Positions 140-26,896 of a stretch of 29,339 nucleotides of DNA are shown in pieces. The notes beneath the pieces are model-generated. The model was given only the letters and a program-made list of their open reading frames with translations. It did not search any database and was not told the origin of the DNA. The stretch covers positions 1-29,339 of the IMG/VR virus record IMGVR_UViG_3300024346_000369. One strand, given 5' to 3'. Positions within the stretch are counted from its first letter, which is position 1, and each line of letters opens with the position of its first letter. This DNA is from a virus. The position numbers and the translations under genes are program-made.

Positions 140-3100
140 TTATTCTTCAATTAATATGTCCCCATTTGTTTCATCTGATATAAAATCTGACGAAATTTCT
201 GTTATTATCCCTTGATCACTTTCAATTAACTCATAAGTTAAATCACATTCTCCCGCGGTTGGGGTTGGTGATGGTGATGGCGAAGGACTCGGAGACGGAC
301 TTGGTGATGGGGTTGGCGAATTACTTGGTGTTGGTGTTGGGGTAGCAATAACCACATCAACCTCAAAGTCACAATTAGGTGTTACCGTTGGAGTCGGAGA
401 CGGTGATGGACTTGGAGTCGGACTCGCGGTAGTTGATGGTGAAGGGCTCGGAGACGGACTCGGAGACGGCGATGGACTTGGGGTAGGACTATTTGATGGT
501 GTTGGCGTTGGCGTAGCAATATCTACGTCAACTTCAAAATCACAATTAGGTGTCACACTAGGTGTCGGAGTTGGTGATGCCGACGGGCTTGGTGATGGTG
601 TTGGACTCGCAGTAGTCGATGGTGACGGACTTGGTGTTGGGCTAGCGGTAGTTGATGGTGTCGGTGATGGGGTTGGACTATTTGACGGAGTTGGAGTTGG
701 TGTGGCAATGTCCACATCAACTTCAAAATCACAATTAGGTGTTACACTAGGTGATGGTGTAGGTGTTGGTGTGAAGGTTGCCGTTGGGTTAGGCGTTTCA
801 GTAGGTACCTGAGTTCCACTAGGTGTTGGAGTCGGTTCAGGTGTTGCAGTTGGGTCTGGAGTTGGGGTTGGTGTGGCAATATCTACGTCAACTTCAAAAT
901 CACAATTTGCGGTCACTGTCGGACTTGGTGATGGTGAAGGGCTTGGCGATGGTGTTGGTGAATTACTTGGTGTTGGAGTTGGTGTAGCAATATCTACATC
1001 GACTTCAAAATCGCAATTTGCGGTAATCGTAGGAGTTGGTGAATTACTTGGTGTTGGAGTTGGTGTAGCAATGTCAATATCAACCTCAAAATCACAGTTA
1101 GGTGTTACCGTCGGTGTTGGCGATGGTGTTGCAGTTGGGTCTGGAGTTGGTGTTGGTGTAGCAATATCTACGTCAACATCAAAGTCACAATTTGGAGTTG
1201 CTGAAGGTGATGGTGTAGGTGTTGGTGTTGCAATATCCACATCAACATCAAAGTCACAATTCGCCGTCACACTAGGTGATGGGGTTGGGGTAGGACTTGC
1301 AGTGGTAGATGGGGTTGGACTCGGAGACGGACTTGGCGTTGGACTTGCGGTAGTTGATGGGGTTGGTTCAGGCGTTACTGTAGGATCCGGAGTCGCAGTA
1401 GGATCAGGAGTTACTGTCGGTTCAGGTGTTACTGTAGGATCCGGAGTCGCAGTAGGATCAGGAGTCGCAGTAGGATCAGGTGTTGCCGAAGGTGATGGTG
1501 TTGGAGTTGGTTCAGGAGTTGCACTTGATGTCGGTTCAGGAGTTGCACTTAATGTTGGTTCAGGTGTAGAACTATTAGTAGGTGCCGGTGTCTCACTAGC
1601 AGTAGGTTCAGGGGTGGCGCTCGATGTAGGTTCAGGCGTTGCACTTAATGTTGGTTCAGGTGTGGATGTTGAGGTAGGTTCTGGTGTTGCGGTTGGTTCA
1701 GGTGTAGCACTATTAGTAGGTGCCGGTGTTTCACTTAATGTTGGTTCAGGTGTAGCACTATTAGTAGGTGCCGGTGTTGCACTTAATGTTGGTTCAGGTG
1801 TTACGGTAGAACTTGGTTCCGGTGTTCCTGAAGGGGTTGGGTTAGGTGTTAATGTAGGTATCGGTGTTGATGTACCTGATGGGTGTGGTGTTGATGTAGG
1901 TATAATAATACAATCATCATCGTATAACGGTCTCTCCAACTCAGGTATTGATGGTATATCCTTACAATCTAATTCATCTTGGAAATACTGTTGTGTATTA
2001 ATATTAAGATTTTCGAATTTTTGTTCAATGTGTTCTATTAATATACAATCCTCATCATCACCATTAAAAACAATTATTTTACCACAATCCAATTCAGATG
2101 GGTTTGAAGTGACATTTAAATGATAGTAAAGATCTCTAGAACAGTAGTCCAAATCAACAGACACAACTTCTATTGGGAAACCGTATTCGTTTAAAAGGAA
2201 GTCACCATCTTCATGGTAAGTTTCTTCATGACTACAACACGGTGTAATTTCATCAATAGGTTTAATCGTTAATTCTTCAGGATATTTCTCCACAAATTCA
2301 TATCTACCGGTATCGTTAGTTAAGACTCTTAACTTTGTATTAGGTAGGACACTAAACCTATCGTTTATCTTGTTGACTTTAACAGACCCTAAACAGTCTT
2401 TATTTTCAACCAATAATGTCTTATAAATCATGGCAAAACCATAACCTTCTATTGGTGAGTTAAAGAAATCTTGAGAACTGTATGGACAATCTTTATACGT
2501 TGCAGATAATATGTAATCACCGATTAAAATATCTTCAATATCGACTTTTACAACATCACCGGAAAGTATGTAATTTTGTACATCTCTCCAATCGTGACTA
2601 ACATTTATGTCTAAACCGTTAACTACTTTTAAGACTTTAGTATTTTGTCTTATACCATAATCAAAGGTTGGTCTATATTGTACTTTTGGGTGTATGGTGT
2701 ATCCTAAATAGTTATCACAATATGTGATACCACTTTGACTTTCTATTGGTGTCGTTTCATCTCCAGGTAGGAAAGAGTCTACAGAATAATTAAAGTAATG
2801 ACTTTTCCCATTAGGGTCCCATTCCAATTTTTGTTGGAGTCCCTCAATTCTTATTTTCTGATCACAGTTAGCGGCATCAGTTATAATAATGTCAAAAACA
2901 TCATGTTCTTTTACATTATTAATGAGGAAGGTACACCCACTAACATGGTTAATACTATAACCCGTTATAGATTCGTTATACCCACCAACACAATTAAGGA
3001 AGATGTTTACAGGCCAATTCGTGTTGTATGGTGGACAATCGTCACAAACATTACCATCGTCAACGGTATCTTCATTACCAAACGTAATCCCTGACACCTC

Positions 3101-6100
3101 AAAATAAACATCTGAAACAAGAGTACACTCGTCAGAATCTTCGGGTAATGTGTACATTGTTCCGTCACCATAAACACTTACCTGTGGATTACATTCGGTA
3201 CTTCCCGTCAAGTATTCTGCTGCCCAATAAAAATCAAACGTACTAGGGTCAATACATTTTAAATCTGAAGGTATAAAACAATCAGAATCTACCGTAGTAC
3301 CATTTCCACTATCCCCTAATTCATGAAAATTAGCTTCGAGTTTTTCGTATAACTGAACATCATAGTTTATACCCCAAATTCTAATTTTTCTTACACCATC
3401 AACATCCGTATAAATCTCATAATTAAGTATTGGTGCGTATTCGTAGTCATAACTTTCAGAATTAGAATCTAATTCATTTAAGTAATTTGTTTCAGTAAGT
3501 GTATTTCCTGTTAACTGGTAATCAACCCAACCCGCATGATTTTGGATGTCATCAAATCCACTATAAAGAGTTTTCTTATAGTATTTTTTATTAATTTGAT
3601 TAACAATAATATCCTCTAACTCATTCGTCCATAACGTATCTAATATTTCCCTTTGTGGTTCTAAATAACATTTAAAATCACAGAGAAGGGGTAAATGGAC
3701 GTTATTATTAAAGGGTACCCCATTAAATTCAACATCATTAATAGAAGTACATTCCGAAGTTATTGTAAATGGTTCGAATAACCCTGCATATGTGGGGTTT
3801 GATGGGATAGGACTTATTGTTGTCCCACTCAATACAATTGGATCGTCTCCTTGGTATGTTTCTCCCTCTAACTCTATAAAGAGTGTGTATGTAACTCCAC
3901 TAACAATAGTTAAACCCCTAAAAACATCTTTGTCACCTAATATAAGTGTCTCTAAATCTTCCTCAATCGCAGTTTCAAACTCAGGGAAAATATTTTGAGA
4001 GTATTCACTTACTAAACATGGTTTAACGTATTCATATTTTGACCTACCAATAGCATGATTCTCAATAATATCACCACCGGTCCATAATGTTGTTGCAGGT
4101 ATGAATTGTTCTATGACCTGTACCCAATAAGGACTCATTTTATTTATGAACTCACTTACTGTTGGGTTACTATATGGGTTAGGTACTTTTTCTAAATAAC
4201 TTCTGTATATATCCTCTAATTGTATGTAAGATTTTTGGTACCTAACAGTATGAGAATTTCTTATTTGTTCATTAAGAACATTATCTAAGAATTCTGCAAA
4301 TGTGAACCCTGTTTGAGGTTCTAGTGTATTTGTACCAAAACTTACTTTTAATTTTCTAGATTGTCTGTAAACATCATATTCAAGTGCTTGTGCAGATGAA
4401 AGATATATTTGAATGTTTTTTCTATTAAGGATTCTACTATCATCGTCACCCAATAATTCCGATTTTTGATTATCAATTGTGTTATGTAATTCATAACCAT
4501 AATCTAAACCATAGAATTGTCTGTATAGATTGAAGTAATCCTCACCATACGTATAATCCTTATTTTTGGTTTTAATGATTTTAGGTGTTTTTGTAAAATC
4601 AGATTTTTCTAAATCTAATTCTGTAGTTGACCTGTGTTGTAATGTTACATCATACCAACCCGCACCTTTTTGAAAGAATGTTTGATTGTTCTCACTAAAT
4701 ATTTGTTGAACGTCACCGTACTTTGTTACCCCTGTTATTACAATAGGGTATTCTGTATCAGAATATATAGTGGTTCCTGTACTAGTTTCATTACTGTACG
4801 TAAATCCTGTTGTGTTTAACTCCGCAATGTTAAAAGTTTTTTCCCCCTGTACTAAATCGTAAAGATCAGAATCAATATCACCAACCGTTTTCTTAACTAC
4901 GTCATATTTGTATACGTGCTCATTAATTTTAATCAACGGTTCTGGTGCACCAATAAATCTAAGGAAAAACTCTATGGCCTTTCTAGTACCTTTTGACTTA
5001 TAAATGTGGACTAAGTTAATAACCAAACGACGGTAAAATTCCGTTTCGGCCTCAACCATATTCATACCAACACCAACTCCGTTATATTGACTATCTACTC
5101 TTGTGTATAAAGTATCTTGTAGAGATTTTTCATCAAATAAATTGACGGTATCTAAACCTAAGGTATTTGATAGATTTTTTAATAAAACATCAGGAATATT
5201 TCTTATACCATCATAACTTACATTTCTCATGTAAGCAACGTTATCTATGAATTTTTTTACCTGATCAAATGCGGTACCGTATAATTGAAATACGGAACCC
5301 ATTCTCTTATCTTCAGTATCAAATTCATTTAAAGATGCGGTTGTTAAGAATCTTACAATTAAGTTAGATTTATAGTTATCAATCTCTTCACCTAAATCTT
5401 TTAATTTTGTTAGGTAAGTAGAATAATCTAACCCCGTTATTTTGATGTTCCAACCGTCCTTAAAAATGGGCCACTTAACTTTTACTGTGGTCATTTCAGT
5501 TTTAGATCCATCAATAGAATCTTTTGGTAATCTAAAACTAGCGGTATAGATAGGACTTGTTTCTCTATTTAAAAGAACTGACTCTAAATCGTCTAAATTG
5601 TTAAAGAACTCTTCAATAATAGAATCAATTGGTCTTATTAAAAAACTTTGATCGTATGTTGTTGAGGTGAAGGGTCTCCCTTTAACCTCTAAAGTAATAT
5701 CGTTATCTCCATCAATAAAACTTAAAACGTCATAACTTAACCCATTTAATACTAACGTATATTTTGAATAGTTTGAGAAGAAATTTTTAAACCCGTTCTC
5801 AACAGTTGGTTGAGTATTACTTTTTGGTTTTGTAAAAACAACATCAAGTGGGTTAAAAATTTTAGATTTTTCAAACTCAAATTTTGTTACGTTAGTTCTA
5901 GGGTTGTATGTGATATTCTCCGCAGTATATTGACTATAAGAGATTGGAGTATCGGCATCGATATAGAACCCCGCAGGGAACTTCCTAATGATCCTTTGGA
6001 CAGACGCTGATAGTCTTTCCTTTAAAGACCCATAAAGTGATTTAGAACCATCTTGTTTAGATTCTGTGAACTTTATCTTATTAGATCTCTCTGTAGTCTT

Positions 6101-6334
6101 TGTGGACTGTGTTTTAGGTCCGTTCTCTTCCTGATTTAAATCTTCAAAAGTTAAGAATTCAGAAAAGGGAACAGATTTAAATTTTTTGGTATCTCTTTGT
6201 GGTATACTTTTTTCAACAGAAAAGTTTGTGGCAGTAAATTGGCTAGACCCATCGGTAATTTGATTACCGATCAAGTTATCGTTAAAGGTTTCCCTTCCAC
6301 TAGCCGCTTGACTTGGAACTTTTCTTTTTGCCAT
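140..6334 (-). CDS. Giant tail/baseplate protein with Pro/Thr/Ser-rich repeat tail
   Basis: A 2064-residue protein, probably in the virion. Residues about 435-480 ([20 protein letters not shown], then [17 protein letters not shown]) resemble the core of phage tail protein I / baseplate proteins, where a kGT motif precedes a hydrophobic helix. Residues about 680-766 carry a second conserved-looking stretch ([19 protein letters not shown], then [10 protein letters not shown]) that I associate with phage structural proteins. The middle (about 770-1478) is Asp/Cys-rich and of unknown fold. Residues 1479-2026 are almost entirely Pro/Thr/Ser/Glu/Asp repeats (TPEPT, SPSPS, TASPT) with eight copies of a Cys-containing motif beginning NCDF. 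A short non-repeat acidic tail closes the protein. Its start overlaps the previous stop by one base (TAATG), suggesting coupling. The family is inferred; the exact place in the tail is unknown. Confidence 0.75.
257..1900 (-). repeat. Low-complexity Pro/Thr/Ser coding repeats with eight NCDF motifs
   Basis: On the minus strand this encodes residues 1479-2026 of the giant tail protein. The right half (about 1265-1900) is built from five-residue periods such as TPEPT/TPDPT/SATPE. The left half mixes TPTP and SPSP runs with eight copies of NCDF(E/D)VD(V/I)DIATPTPTP; one copy has V in place of the last D. The Asn codons lie at 1259-1261, 1190-1192, 1097-1099, 1016-1018, 905-907, 734-736, 545-547 and 374-376, giving spacings of 23, 31, 27, 37, 57, 63 and 57 residues. 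The repeats are diverged in synonymous positions, so this is an old or selected protein repeat rather than a fresh DNA duplication. It also opens a long antisense frame that is not a gene. Confidence 0.9.
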
Positions 6335-18031: not shown

Positions 18032-18057
18032 AAAAAACCCCTCGAAAACGAGGGGTT
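18032..18057 (-). terminator. Intrinsic terminator after nrdA
   Basis: On the minus strand a nine-base stem AACCCCTCG / CGAGGGGTT encloses a TTTT loop and runs into TTTTA then TTTATA (six T in a row counting the stem end). It starts 27 bases after the NrdA stop and separates the nucleotide/replication block from the structural operon. On the plus strand the hairpin is followed by A residues, so it acts only for minus-strand transcription. Confidence 0.9.
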
Positions 18058-24449: not shown

Positions 24450-25466
24450 CTATTCTTCGTCCTTGTATTCTGAAGGACCTTCTTTGATATCGAAATCACC
24501 ACCTTCTCCAAGTTGGTTGTTCCAATATTCTGCATATTCGTTTTTGTATTGTTCCAAGGATTTCTTTTCCTCGGCAGCGTCTTTTCCTTTTAAGAAACCG
24601 TGTGCGGTTACAATAATCTTTCCATCCTCATATCCCAAACCATTTACGTGGTTCTTCATGATTGATACTTTTGATTTAGTTGCAAACTTCACTTTTCTCC
24701 CACTTTTAACAGCTGAAAGTGGATTGGTACCTGCATTTTTCTGATTTCCAAAACGGAAAACTAATGTTGAGTTTAACCATACTGATTCTCCACCCTTTGC
24801 TTTGATCTTTGGTTGACCGAAAGGATTATCAGGTAACTCAACCCATGGTTGATTTACGATAACCAATGTATTAGTGAATTGAGAATCAACACGTCTTGAA
24901 CCCGAAATTCTTTGGTTAAGACCCATACCGATCTTATCAGAAAGTACAGATGCATTGTGTTGTTTACCACCTTTACCATCAAAAGTCATTTTACATGGTA
25001 CTGAACCAACTGAATCCCATAACAATAGTAAATCATATTCTAATTCACCTTTTTTCTGTGCATCCAATAACTCATTAATGTAATCGGTAATTTGTTCTAT
25101 GTATTCAAATTGATTGTTGAATAGAAAGAAACCTTCGTATTCGATTTCCCCCGTTTCTTCATCAACCAATTCTTCAACTTCCAATCCCATTAATTTTGCG
25201 TGTGGGAAGTCCCATTTTTGTTCTGTAATAATGAACACAGGGAGAATACCTTTCTTCTGAGCATCCACCGCAGTTTTTACCAATGCAGTTGTTTTACCAG
25301 TATCAGAATGACCTAAGAACATGTTTATGTGTCCCATTGCAGGACCCGGTAAACCTGTTGCATCTAAAAAGGCATCTCCTAAGTCAAAAAATCGGTCGGT
25401 TTTGAACTTCGCCTGTTTAGAGAATTTACCTTTTATCTCCGCGAAACTTTTTTTCTTTATTGCCAT
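24450..25466 (-). CDS. uvsX: UvsX/RecA-like recombinase
   Basis: A 338-residue RecA-family protein (T4 UvsX is about 391) that coats single-stranded DNA and carries out strand exchange in recombination-dependent replication and repair. Walker A is GHSDTGKTT at residues 52-60, Walker B is LLLLWD with D151, and the following DSVGSVP is typical of phage UvsX. A long L2-type loop region (VIVNQPWVELPDNPFGQPK, then KAKGGESVWLNSTLVF) is present. The C-terminus is acidic (GEGGDFDIKEGPSEYKDEE), as in many RecA proteins, and may regulate DNA binding. Its ATG lies 21 bases after a structured terminator-like element, which could control its expression. No uvsY was found in the window. Confidence 0.95.
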   Translation of the reverse strand: MAIKKKSFAEIKGKFSKQAKFKTDRFFDLGDAFLDATGLPGPAMGHINMFLGHSDTGKTTALVKTAVDAQKKGILPVFIITEQKWDFPHAKLMGLEVEELVDEETGEIEYEGFFLFNNQFEYIEQITDYINELLDAQKKGELEYDLLLLWDSVGSVPCKMTFDGKGGKQHNASVLSDKIGMGLNQRISGSRRVDSQFTNTLVIVNQPWVELPDNPFGQPKIKAKGGESVWLNSTLVFRFGNQKNAGTNPLSAVKSGRKVKFATKSKVSIMKNHVNGLGYEDGKIIVTAHGFLKGKDAAEEKKSLEQYKNEYAEYWNNQLGEGGDFDIKEGPSEYKDEE

Positions 25467-25475
25467 TTATTTTTT

Positions 25476-25541
25476 TTAATTAAAAAGGGTCCCCATCCTC
25501 GGGGCCGACATAGTCGGTGTTGCTCCACCAGATGTTTCCAT
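25476..25541 (-). CDS. Possible 21-codon leader ORF before uvsX
   Basis: A minus-strand ORF starting ATG GAA ACA TCT and ending TAA, ten bases before the uvsX start. The peptide begins METSGGATPT and ends GTLFN, with three internal Met residues. A-rich sequence precedes the ATG, like other starts here. It occupies the inside and 3' arm of the structured element, so its high G+C may come from the RNA fold instead of coding need. If translated, a ribosome would open the terminator stem and let transcription pass into uvsX. It could equally be chance; no homologue is known to me. Confidence 0.25.
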   Translation of the reverse strand: METSGGATPTMSAPRMGTLFN

Positions 25542-25569
25542 CAATTTATTTTTTTTGAGGTGGGGACCC
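25487..25569 (-). terminator. Multi-hairpin terminator-like element between gp32 and uvsX
   Basis: On the minus strand, GGGTCCCCA (25569-25561) pairs perfectly with TGGGGACCC (25495-25487), and the flanking CCTC/GAGG extends the stem by four bases past a single bulge. Five T follow at once (25486-25482), as in an intrinsic terminator. Inside are three small hairpins: GATG-GAAA-CATC with a GNRA loop, GGTG-GAGCAA-CACC, and CCGAC-TAT-GTCGG. An alternative short stem CCCC-GAGGAT-GGGG shares the 3' arm and would compete with the long stem. The layout is more elaborate than a simple terminator and is compatible with a regulated leader (attenuator or riboswitch-like). It matches no RNA family that I can name. 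Confidence 0.6.
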
Positions 25570-25581
25570 GTGTTTTAGTTT

Positions 25582-26433
25582 TTAGAATGGTAAATCGTCA
25601 TCAACTTCTTGTGACACTTGTGGATCCTCTACGGGAACATTTGCCTTCAAAGGTGCCGAACCACCGAAATCAGTTTCTGATTCTGATTTTGACACGTATT
25701 TCTTTGCCTCTGTATCCCATACAGGTACTTCACCCAATGCAACCATCTCTAAATATTCGATTGGTTTTACTGAATAAACATCTCTCCACGTTGTATCGTC
25801 ATTTGCCCATTCGTTTGCAATTTCGGAATCGGTGTGTAAAGGAGTTTTATCATCTTGGATGATAGAGTTAATAGTAGTATATTCTCTACCATTAGGTGCC
25901 TTGTTTAAGGTCAATGATAAAATCAAGTCTCTACCTTCAAGGATGTCGGTTACATCACCTTTACTTCTAATGATAGGAATGATTTTGTCCAAAGGACCAT
26001 CACCTTTGTAGTTGTGTTTGAATCTCCAAAATTTAGGACCGTCTTGTTCGTTATCACGATCGATAACTTTTACGATATAAAATTTTCTTGCTCTGTAGTT
26101 TCTCGCAATTTGACGATCTGTTTCATCACCTGTTGCTTCTAAACTCTTCTTAACCTCATTAAGTGGTGATCTTTCACCATCTTGTGCGGGGTCATAAAGT
26201 TTTACCCATGATCCATTTACTTGGATTTCATGGAACTCAACCTCTTTAAAACATGTACTACCGTCCTTTGTTGGTAGAATTCTGATTCTCTTCTGACCTG
26301 AGGTTGAACCTTTTGGTAAGATAGTTGTGAAGTACTTTTTTAGTCGATCTTCACTCGACACTTTGTTGCCGCTTGCGGCAGGTTGCGTATTTTTCTCGTA
26401 CTGAGAAAGAATCGCGTCAATTGAATTGTTCAT
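25582..26433 (-). CDS. 32: Single-stranded-DNA-binding protein gp32
   Basis: A 283-residue gp32-type protein (T4 is 301) that coats single-stranded DNA and organises replication, recombination and repair. After a basic N-terminus (SSEDRLKKYFTTILPKGSTS) comes the OB-fold core: KRIRILPTKDG, FHEIQVNGSWVKLYDPAQDG, then NYRARKFYIVKVIDRDNEQD and FWRFKHNYKGDGPL. The acidic C-terminus ends EVDDDLPF, as expected for partner binding. ATG 26433 is preferred; an in-frame ATG at 26472 lies inside the T-run of a terminator and adds residues unlike the family. Only one Cys is present, so the zinc-binding Cys set of T4 gp32 is missing. Terminator-like elements on both sides suggest it is transcribed alone, probably at high level. 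Confidence 0.92.
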   Translation of the reverse strand: MNNSIDAILSQYEKNTQPAASGNKVSSEDRLKKYFTTILPKGSTSGQKRIRILPTKDGSTCFKEVEFHEIQVNGSWVKLYDPAQDGERSPLNEVKKSLEATGDETDRQIARNYRARKFYIVKVIDRDNEQDGPKFWRFKHNYKGDGPLDKIIPIIRSKGDVTDILEGRDLILSLTLNKAPNGREYTTINSIIQDDKTPLHTDSEIANEWANDDTTWRDVYSVKPIEYLEMVALGEVPVWDTEAKKYVSKSESETDFGGSAPLKANVPVEDPQVSQEVDDDLPF

Positions 26434-26472
26434 ATTATTACGATTTAAATTATGTGTAAATAAAAGATACAT

Positions 26473-26506
26473 AAAAAAAGTCCGAGAGTCAAGGCCCCCG
26501 GACTTT
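26473..26506 (-). terminator. Intrinsic terminator before gp32
   Basis: On the minus strand AAAGTCCG pairs with CGGACTTT, and G-C/G-U pairs (GGGG with CTCT) extend the stem to 12 base pairs around a CCTTGA loop, followed by a long T-run (26479-26473). It lies 24 bases after the stop of the 121-residue protein and 39 bases before the gp32 start. It ends the upstream transcript, so gp32 needs its own promoter in the short A/T-rich gap. Confidence 0.9.
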
Positions 26507-26530: not shown

Positions 26531-26896
26531 TTATTTAAGTGTGAGTAAATAAGAGAGTTTGTTAATCTGTGCCAACATCTCATCCCTTATATTCAATAAA
26601 TCACTGTCTGCAGGATTTATTTCCATTTTTTGAAGGGTAGTCCTAACTGTCTTAATCATACCTAACATATCTACATCAGAAAGATTATTGATTGTTAGGG
26701 TTTTATTTTCATCTTCTAAGATGAATCTTCCATGAAGACCCATGCATGTTTCAACAAAACTATCTATAAGTCCATCCAAAACATCATAGGTATCACCCAA
26801 TGCGATATGTTTTGCGTGGCTTTTAGTTTGCCAATGTAAAATTCTCAACTGAGATTGAAGTTCTAAAAAGAACTGTACATTACCATTCAACTTCAT
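26531..26896 (-). CDS. Small helical phage protein, DUF5856-like
   Basis: A 121-residue, mostly alpha-helical protein. The N-terminal part (FFLELQSQLRILHWQTKSHA, then KHIALGDTYDVLDGLIDSFV and ETCMGLHGR) resembles a family of small phage proteins, which I recall as DUF5856, with a Dps/ferritin-like helical layout: HWQT, KH-x-A-x-x-x-x-Y and D-x-x-x-D-x-x-x-E. Whether it binds metal is unknown. The helices continue to the C-terminus (NIRDEMLAQINKLSYLLTLK). It overlaps the acidic coiled-coil gene by 17 bases and is followed by a terminator, so it ends its operon. The family assignment is from memory of the motif and is moderately sure. Confidence 0.6.
   Translation of the reverse strand: MKLNGNVQFFLELQSQLRILHWQTKSHAKHIALGDTYDVLDGLIDSFVETCMGLHGRFILEDENKTLTINNLSDVDMLGMIKTVRTTLQKMEINPADSDLLNIRDEMLAQINKLSYLLTLK

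Follow-up and report, generated by a model that had tools for sequence, protein, structure and literature searches.

The wcaG RNA (Rfam RF01761), a candidate riboswitch that has gone unexplained since 2010, was described in 5' UTRs, those of either exopolysaccharide or high-light genes (Weinberg et al. 2010, PMC2864571). An authentic copy in Synechococcus phage S-CREM1 (92.7 bits) has the form GUUUC-hairpin-GUGGUGCGGAU-GGG..CCC-GCC-UG-GUUUC-hairpin-GUGGCGAGCC, and each of the 14 cyanophage loci that we read contains one to three modules of the type UUUC-hairpin-GUGG, often beside tRNA genes. In cyanophages S-SM2, S-SRM01, DSL-LC03 and S-RIM32 (loci L350-L356) the wcaG RNA is overlapped by annotated CDSs that are short or extended, e.g. 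S-SM2 SSM2_190 and S-SRM01 gp295; these CDSs are probably spurious or start too early. Here we present evidence for a smaller relative of this RNA between the gp32 and uvsX genes of an uncultivated phage. Judging from sequence comparisons, it is probably a single-module wcaG-like 3'-UTR RNA that is nested in the terminator ending the gp32 transcript and limits read-through into uvsX.

The window, i.e. the whole 29,339-nt stretch of DNA analysed (IMGVR_UViG_3300024346_000369), is a fragment of a T4-like phage. All large genes in the part of the window around the element lie on the minus strand, and the element occupies the 115-base gap between the end of the gp32-like gene at 25582 and the start of uvsX at 25466 (Table 1). 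The gp32-like gene has a second in-frame ATG at 26433. A strong terminator, AAAGTCCGGGGGCC..GGACTTT-TTTT, separates gp32 from a Dps-like gene (26531-26896) at 26477-26506 on the minus strand, and another strong terminator follows the ribonucleotide reductase large subunit, at 18036-18057. The minus strand also encodes, at 140-6334, a 2064-aa protein with long Pro/Thr/Ser repeats, of which a 416-aa plus-strand ORF (873-2123) is probably the shadow.

Table 1. Coordinates of the gp32-uvsX junction element and its neighbouring genes in the window
Feature	Position	Strand	Basis or behaviour in relatives
gp32-like single-stranded DNA-binding protein (upstream gene)	25582..26472	-	PHROG phrog_1192, E = 2.9e-8
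P1 outer stem (terminator), 5' arm GGGTCCCCA-CCTC	25557..25569	-	wholesale compensatory replacement in relatives
A/T-rich linker P1-P2, variable in length and sequence	25543..25556	-	alignment of 15 gp32-uvsX gaps
P2 hairpin GATG-GAAA-CATC, GNRA loop	25531..25542	-	compensated in L001, L215; absent in L003, L223
Conserved core U-GGUGGAG (UGGUGGAG)	25523..25530	-	invariant in 15/15 aligned gp32-uvsX copies
P3 hairpin CCGAC-TAT-GTCGG	25505..25517	-	variable loop length; stem covaries in the wider family
YCCY segment 3' of P3, also 5' arm of the competing short hairpin	25501..25504	-	
P1 3' arm (terminator)	25487..25500	-	fold and alignment
T-run (TTTTT) of the intrinsic terminator	25482..25486	-	TTTT invariant in 15 relatives
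UvsX-like recombinase (downstream gene)	24450..25466	-	PHROG phrog_97, E = 4.2e-12

The structure noticed in the original prediction is real and occupies the gp32-uvsX gap on the minus strand. Its outer nine base pairs, GGGTCCCCA/TGGGGACCC (25569-25561 with 25495-25487), are joined across a one-base bulge to four more, CCTC/GAGG (25560-25557 with 25500-25497), and five T follow. Such a GC-rich stem running directly into a T-run, and preserved in relatives, is characteristic of an intrinsic terminator. Three hairpins had been claimed inside this stem; P2 and P3 are conserved, but the third, GGTG..CACC, is a window-specific feature. Also present is the short competing hairpin, CCCC-GAGGAT-GGGG (25504-25491). 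The fold energy is -37.9 kcal/mol (z = -3.85), and none of 200 shuffles is as stable. We propose that the first GG of the core pairs with the CC after P3; these GG:CC pairs vary only to G-U. An Rfam search with the window gave no match at the gathering threshold and none at E up to 10.

To read this junction in other phages, we collected 80 related loci by uvsX similarity and inspected the gp32-uvsX gap in each. All 14 of the closest loci (L001-L014, 87-90% identity) retain the element; in L015, L016 and most loci below 80% identity, a plain hairpin with a T-run takes its place or the gap is only a few bases long. That sister phages (L015, L016, L017, L020 and others) have a simple hairpin and T-run at the same junction favours a plain gp32 terminator, whose inner hairpins would be neutral passengers. 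However, conservation in the 15-gap alignment is higher in the inner core than in the terminator arms, and the core recurs elsewhere with covariation (see below), making this explanation improbable. The element is found in 22 distinct gaps, where P1 is swapped wholesale and yet remains paired (GGGTCCCC/GGGGACCC; GGACCCACC/GGTGGGTCC in L001 and L005; GAACCTATCCCCC/GGGGGGTAGGTTC in L126). Likewise, the GATG/CATC of P2 is replaced by GACG/CGTC in L001 and, in L215, by GATGT-GTGA-ACATC, and P3 changes from CCGAC/GTCGG to CCGAT/ATCGG; two of the 22 gaps (L003 and L223) are without P2. Among isolated phages, the only related uvsX (44%) is that of Flavobacterium phage immuto, whose SSB-recombinase spacing of 2 bases sets it apart from this type of gap.

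The same gaps bear on the suggestion that translation of a small ORF controls uvsX. An open frame of 21 codons does exist in the window (ATG..TAA, 25541-25476; METSGGATPTMSAPRMGTLFN), with an A-rich stretch preceding its ATG, which sits inside P2, and a stop 9 bases ahead of the uvsX ATG. Against such a leader peptide, the start, frame, length and stop all vary among the 22 related gaps: two have GACG and no start at this site, P2 is missing in two more, and the peptides predicted from the same start elsewhere range from 7 to 34 codons, with differing frames and stops. The claim is refuted by this comparison, and we assign control by the small ORF a negligible likelihood.

The conserved inner module can be written as hairpin-U-GGUGGAG-N-hairpin-YCC. 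Using a pattern derived from the gp32-uvsX family we scanned IMG/VR and recovered this core at unrelated gene junctions of other phages. As this pattern required both GGTGGAG and CCGAY..RTCGG, the first copies from outside gp32-uvsX were partly selected for these features; the U before GGTGGAG was absent from the pattern, yet it occurs in 23/23 low-GC hits as against 18/69 other hits. Because the pattern scans preselected the RNA sequence, we also took a pattern-independent route, searching by a conserved 99-aa downstream gene and then reading the DNA upstream of it. This synteny yielded many more copies, with markedly different stems such as CTGAC/GTCAG (L309), CCGG/CCGG (L289), TGACC/GGTCA (L324), TTGACAC/GTGTCGA (L311) and CCGAAT/ATTCGG (L307). 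The 99-aa protein itself (..GSYMAKQQLFTIATLAYKMWE..), found downstream of many copies (L267-L346, match at 1501 onward), has no PHROG match. Variant modules in L329, L335 and L343 have UGGUGGAC, a shortened bulge and GCUC replacing YCC after P3. With one strict pattern, 84,980 bacterial and archaeal genomes gave zero copies of the module.

Across both contexts, gp32-uvsX and elsewhere, UGGUGG is invariant. The consensus is UUU-P2-U-GG-UGGAG-N-P3-(Y)-CC-N-AAA-terminator. A terminator follows in all 36 tested copies outside gp32-uvsX (control: 104 of 2000 random positions), and in nearly all copies outside this junction no more than about 60 nt separate the upstream stop codon from P2 (maximum 96 nt), or the stop codon is even inside P2. 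The flanking genes are non-homologous, being of many unrelated kinds upstream and varied downstream. There is usually one clear copy per record; a single copy per genome is odd, as it would be unexpected for a general RNA-stabilizing element.

Covariation was assessed in model-based alignments of 37 copies with 14 pairs. Within these pairs 97.5-99.8% of cells are paired, percentages that lean toward the model since the alignments were fitted to it; controls with slid partners and the stems found by synteny are independent of this fitting. Two-sided compensatory changes occur in 11 of the 14 pairs, the 55 double-change cells compare with a shuffled mean of 11-13 that never reached this count in 500 shuffles, and the signal collapses when pairing partners are slid. 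A covariance model built solely from copies outside gp32-uvsX (R3) recognizes the junction gap in 18 of 19 gp32-uvsX sources, L126 being the exception, with 13-23 bits (L001: 22.8 bits, E = 0.0036). Its score on the window is weak (16.2 bits, E = 0.15 for 162 kb); a model that includes two gp32-uvsX copies (R2) finds the window at E = 7.6e-5. The anatomy, conservation and covariation of the module, and its recurrence at predicted transcript ends flanking unrelated genes, are established at the level of sequence. The original prediction had named a GC-rich hairpin and T-run with no covariation in the inner part as the observation that would speak against it. Instead, inner elements and outer stem are both conserved and covarying, which supports its notion of a new structured RNA as well as its attenuator or terminator ideas.

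An attenuator of uvsX, either riboswitch-like or controlled by a protein, would use the CCACC of the P1 5' arm and the GGUGG of the module as an antiterminator; folding or binding of the module would then free the 5' arm, allowing the terminator to form and turning uvsX off. These two pairings are mutually exclusive. When transcripts are folded after truncation before the 3' arm, GGUGG is predicted to pair with the 5' arm with a probability of 0.65-0.99 in most of the 22 gaps, and the full transcript is predicted to fold into the terminator. In addition, uvsX starts about 16 bases past the T-run, which leaves little room for a promoter of its own. The alternative folding proposed earlier is thus predicted in truncated transcripts and would fit a regulated attenuator. 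It does not hold generally, however. The alternative pairing is weak in the window (0.29) and L126 (0.09), and outside gp32-uvsX the terminator is separate from the module, with no consistent overlap and with unrelated genes downstream. The conservation of CCACC is no independent evidence here, since the terminator stem also requires it, and we know of no ligand for the module. We consider a regulated attenuator rather unlikely. Two further pairings were considered and rejected, namely a general terminator/antiterminator overlap outside gp32-uvsX, where the pairing is inconsistent, and, for L172-type loci, a pairing of the terminator with a GGTGAAG arm lying upstream, which by eye has no covariation.

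We favour a 3'-UTR RNA nested in a partial terminator. The element would be the 3' UTR of the gp32 transcription unit, with P1 and the T-run acting as an operon-internal intrinsic terminator that ends most gp32 transcripts. A minority would read through into uvsX, and this partial termination would keep uvsX below gp32. In this clade the terminator loop holds one conserved module, P2-U-GGUGGAG-N-P3-YCC, a probable relative of the repeated unit of wcaG. The module most likely serves the RNA that it terminates and not one particular downstream gene; it would do so either as a bound or stabilized 3' domain or as an RNA that is released from the 3' UTR. This is the least certain part of the proposal, and it is favoured because the neighbouring genes vary while the 3'-end position is constant. 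For a large group of uncultivated phages, such a combination of module and terminator points to a possible way of setting the gp32:uvsX ratio.

A second recurrent setting of the module involves the GOLLD RNA (RF02032). Both occur in 25 records, including contigs of 270-297 kb. Judged by coordinates, the module follows GOLLD there on the same strand at a distance of 0.6-2.7 kb and closes a gene cassette. The arrangement is seen in loci L172, L144, L150, L216, L219 and L324 and in records G013-G045, and six loci were read closely. In these six, GOLLD and the terminator belonging to it are followed by a cassette of small genes on the same strand, then by the module and a second terminator, with no additional terminator between GOLLD's own and the module. 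GOLLD is, however, a separate RNA with its own terminator; it was not found in the window or in other gp32-uvsX contigs, and L140, L315, L321 and L335 have the module in contigs without it.

Taken together, a wcaG unit that occurs alone, covaries, lies at transcript ends beside unrelated genes and is repeatedly found downstream of GOLLD counts against the current annotation of wcaG as a 5'-UTR exopolysaccharide switch. We tentatively suggest that there are relocatable small 3'-end RNA modules of phages, wcaG being one tandem form, which mark single transcripts in T4-like and GOLLD-carrying phages (gp32 here, the post-GOLLD cassette, and the tRNA/ncRNA region of cyanophages) and which may act via the terminated RNA or in trans. 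As the module is a compact object of 50 nt, its function is directly testable.

The module also bears some likeness to the T-box antiterminator, with a two-pair helix, a 5' bulge beginning UGG, a second helix without a 3' bulge and a terminator nearby. It might accordingly bind tRNA 3' ends, through a T-box-like UGGN or through pairing of UGGUGGAG with the complementary CUCCACCA, the 3' terminus that tRNA-Ala or tmRNA is expected to carry. Such binding would fit the topology (GG, a bulge on the 5' side that starts with UGGA, hairpin, CC) and the tRNA genes that often adjoin cyanophage wcaG. But the window has neither Stem I with its specifier loop, nor a UGGNACC bulge (it reads UGGAG-N), nor an amino-acid gene, and there is no Rfam T-box match, so that membership in the T-box class was rejected. 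Pairing with the tRNA-Ala or tmRNA 3' end was likewise rejected as a general mechanism: cyanophage modules read UGGUGCGGAU, UGGCGAG or UGGCGUG, so that only UGG[UC]G is common and UGGUGGA is not. We regard tRNA binding as very unlikely.

The closest described relative remains wcaG. It too is an element of T4-like phages, part of it has the order UUUC-hairpin-G-UGGUG...-hairpin-CC, it often begins right after a stop codon (in Bellamy the CDS ends at 699 and wcaG starts at 701), and a terminator is sometimes downstream, although a simple terminator test was positive for just 4 of the 14 cyanophage wcaG loci. The two forms adjoin in S-SRM01, where an extra module, UUUCCUAGUUUG..AAAUUAGG-UGGUGGAG-UCA-AAA-UGA-CCCC, has the motif of the window type directly 5' of a canonical wcaG (R3: 26.5 bits, E = 3.3e-5). 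The window has the hairpin-UGGUG, and its P3 is followed by CC (CCGAC-TAT-GTCGG-CCCC) as in wcaG; the UUUC motif, present in relatives outside gp32, is replaced by ends of the UUG type. The second UUUC-hairpin-GUGGCG module (P4) of wcaG proper, which also has GGUGCGGAU in place of GGUGGAG, is missing, and CC runs straight into the terminator arm. The RF01761 gathering score (42 bits) is missed, the best relative reaching 23.5 bits (E = 0.013) and the window giving no match even at E up to 10. With the second module missing and no RF01761 score, we describe the element as wcaG-like and do not file it as wcaG, from which it further differs in sitting inside a terminator. It resembles other intrinsic (Rho-independent) terminators in its GC-rich stem and T-run after gp32, but where the usual loop is short, that of the window is a conserved structured module of about 50 nt.
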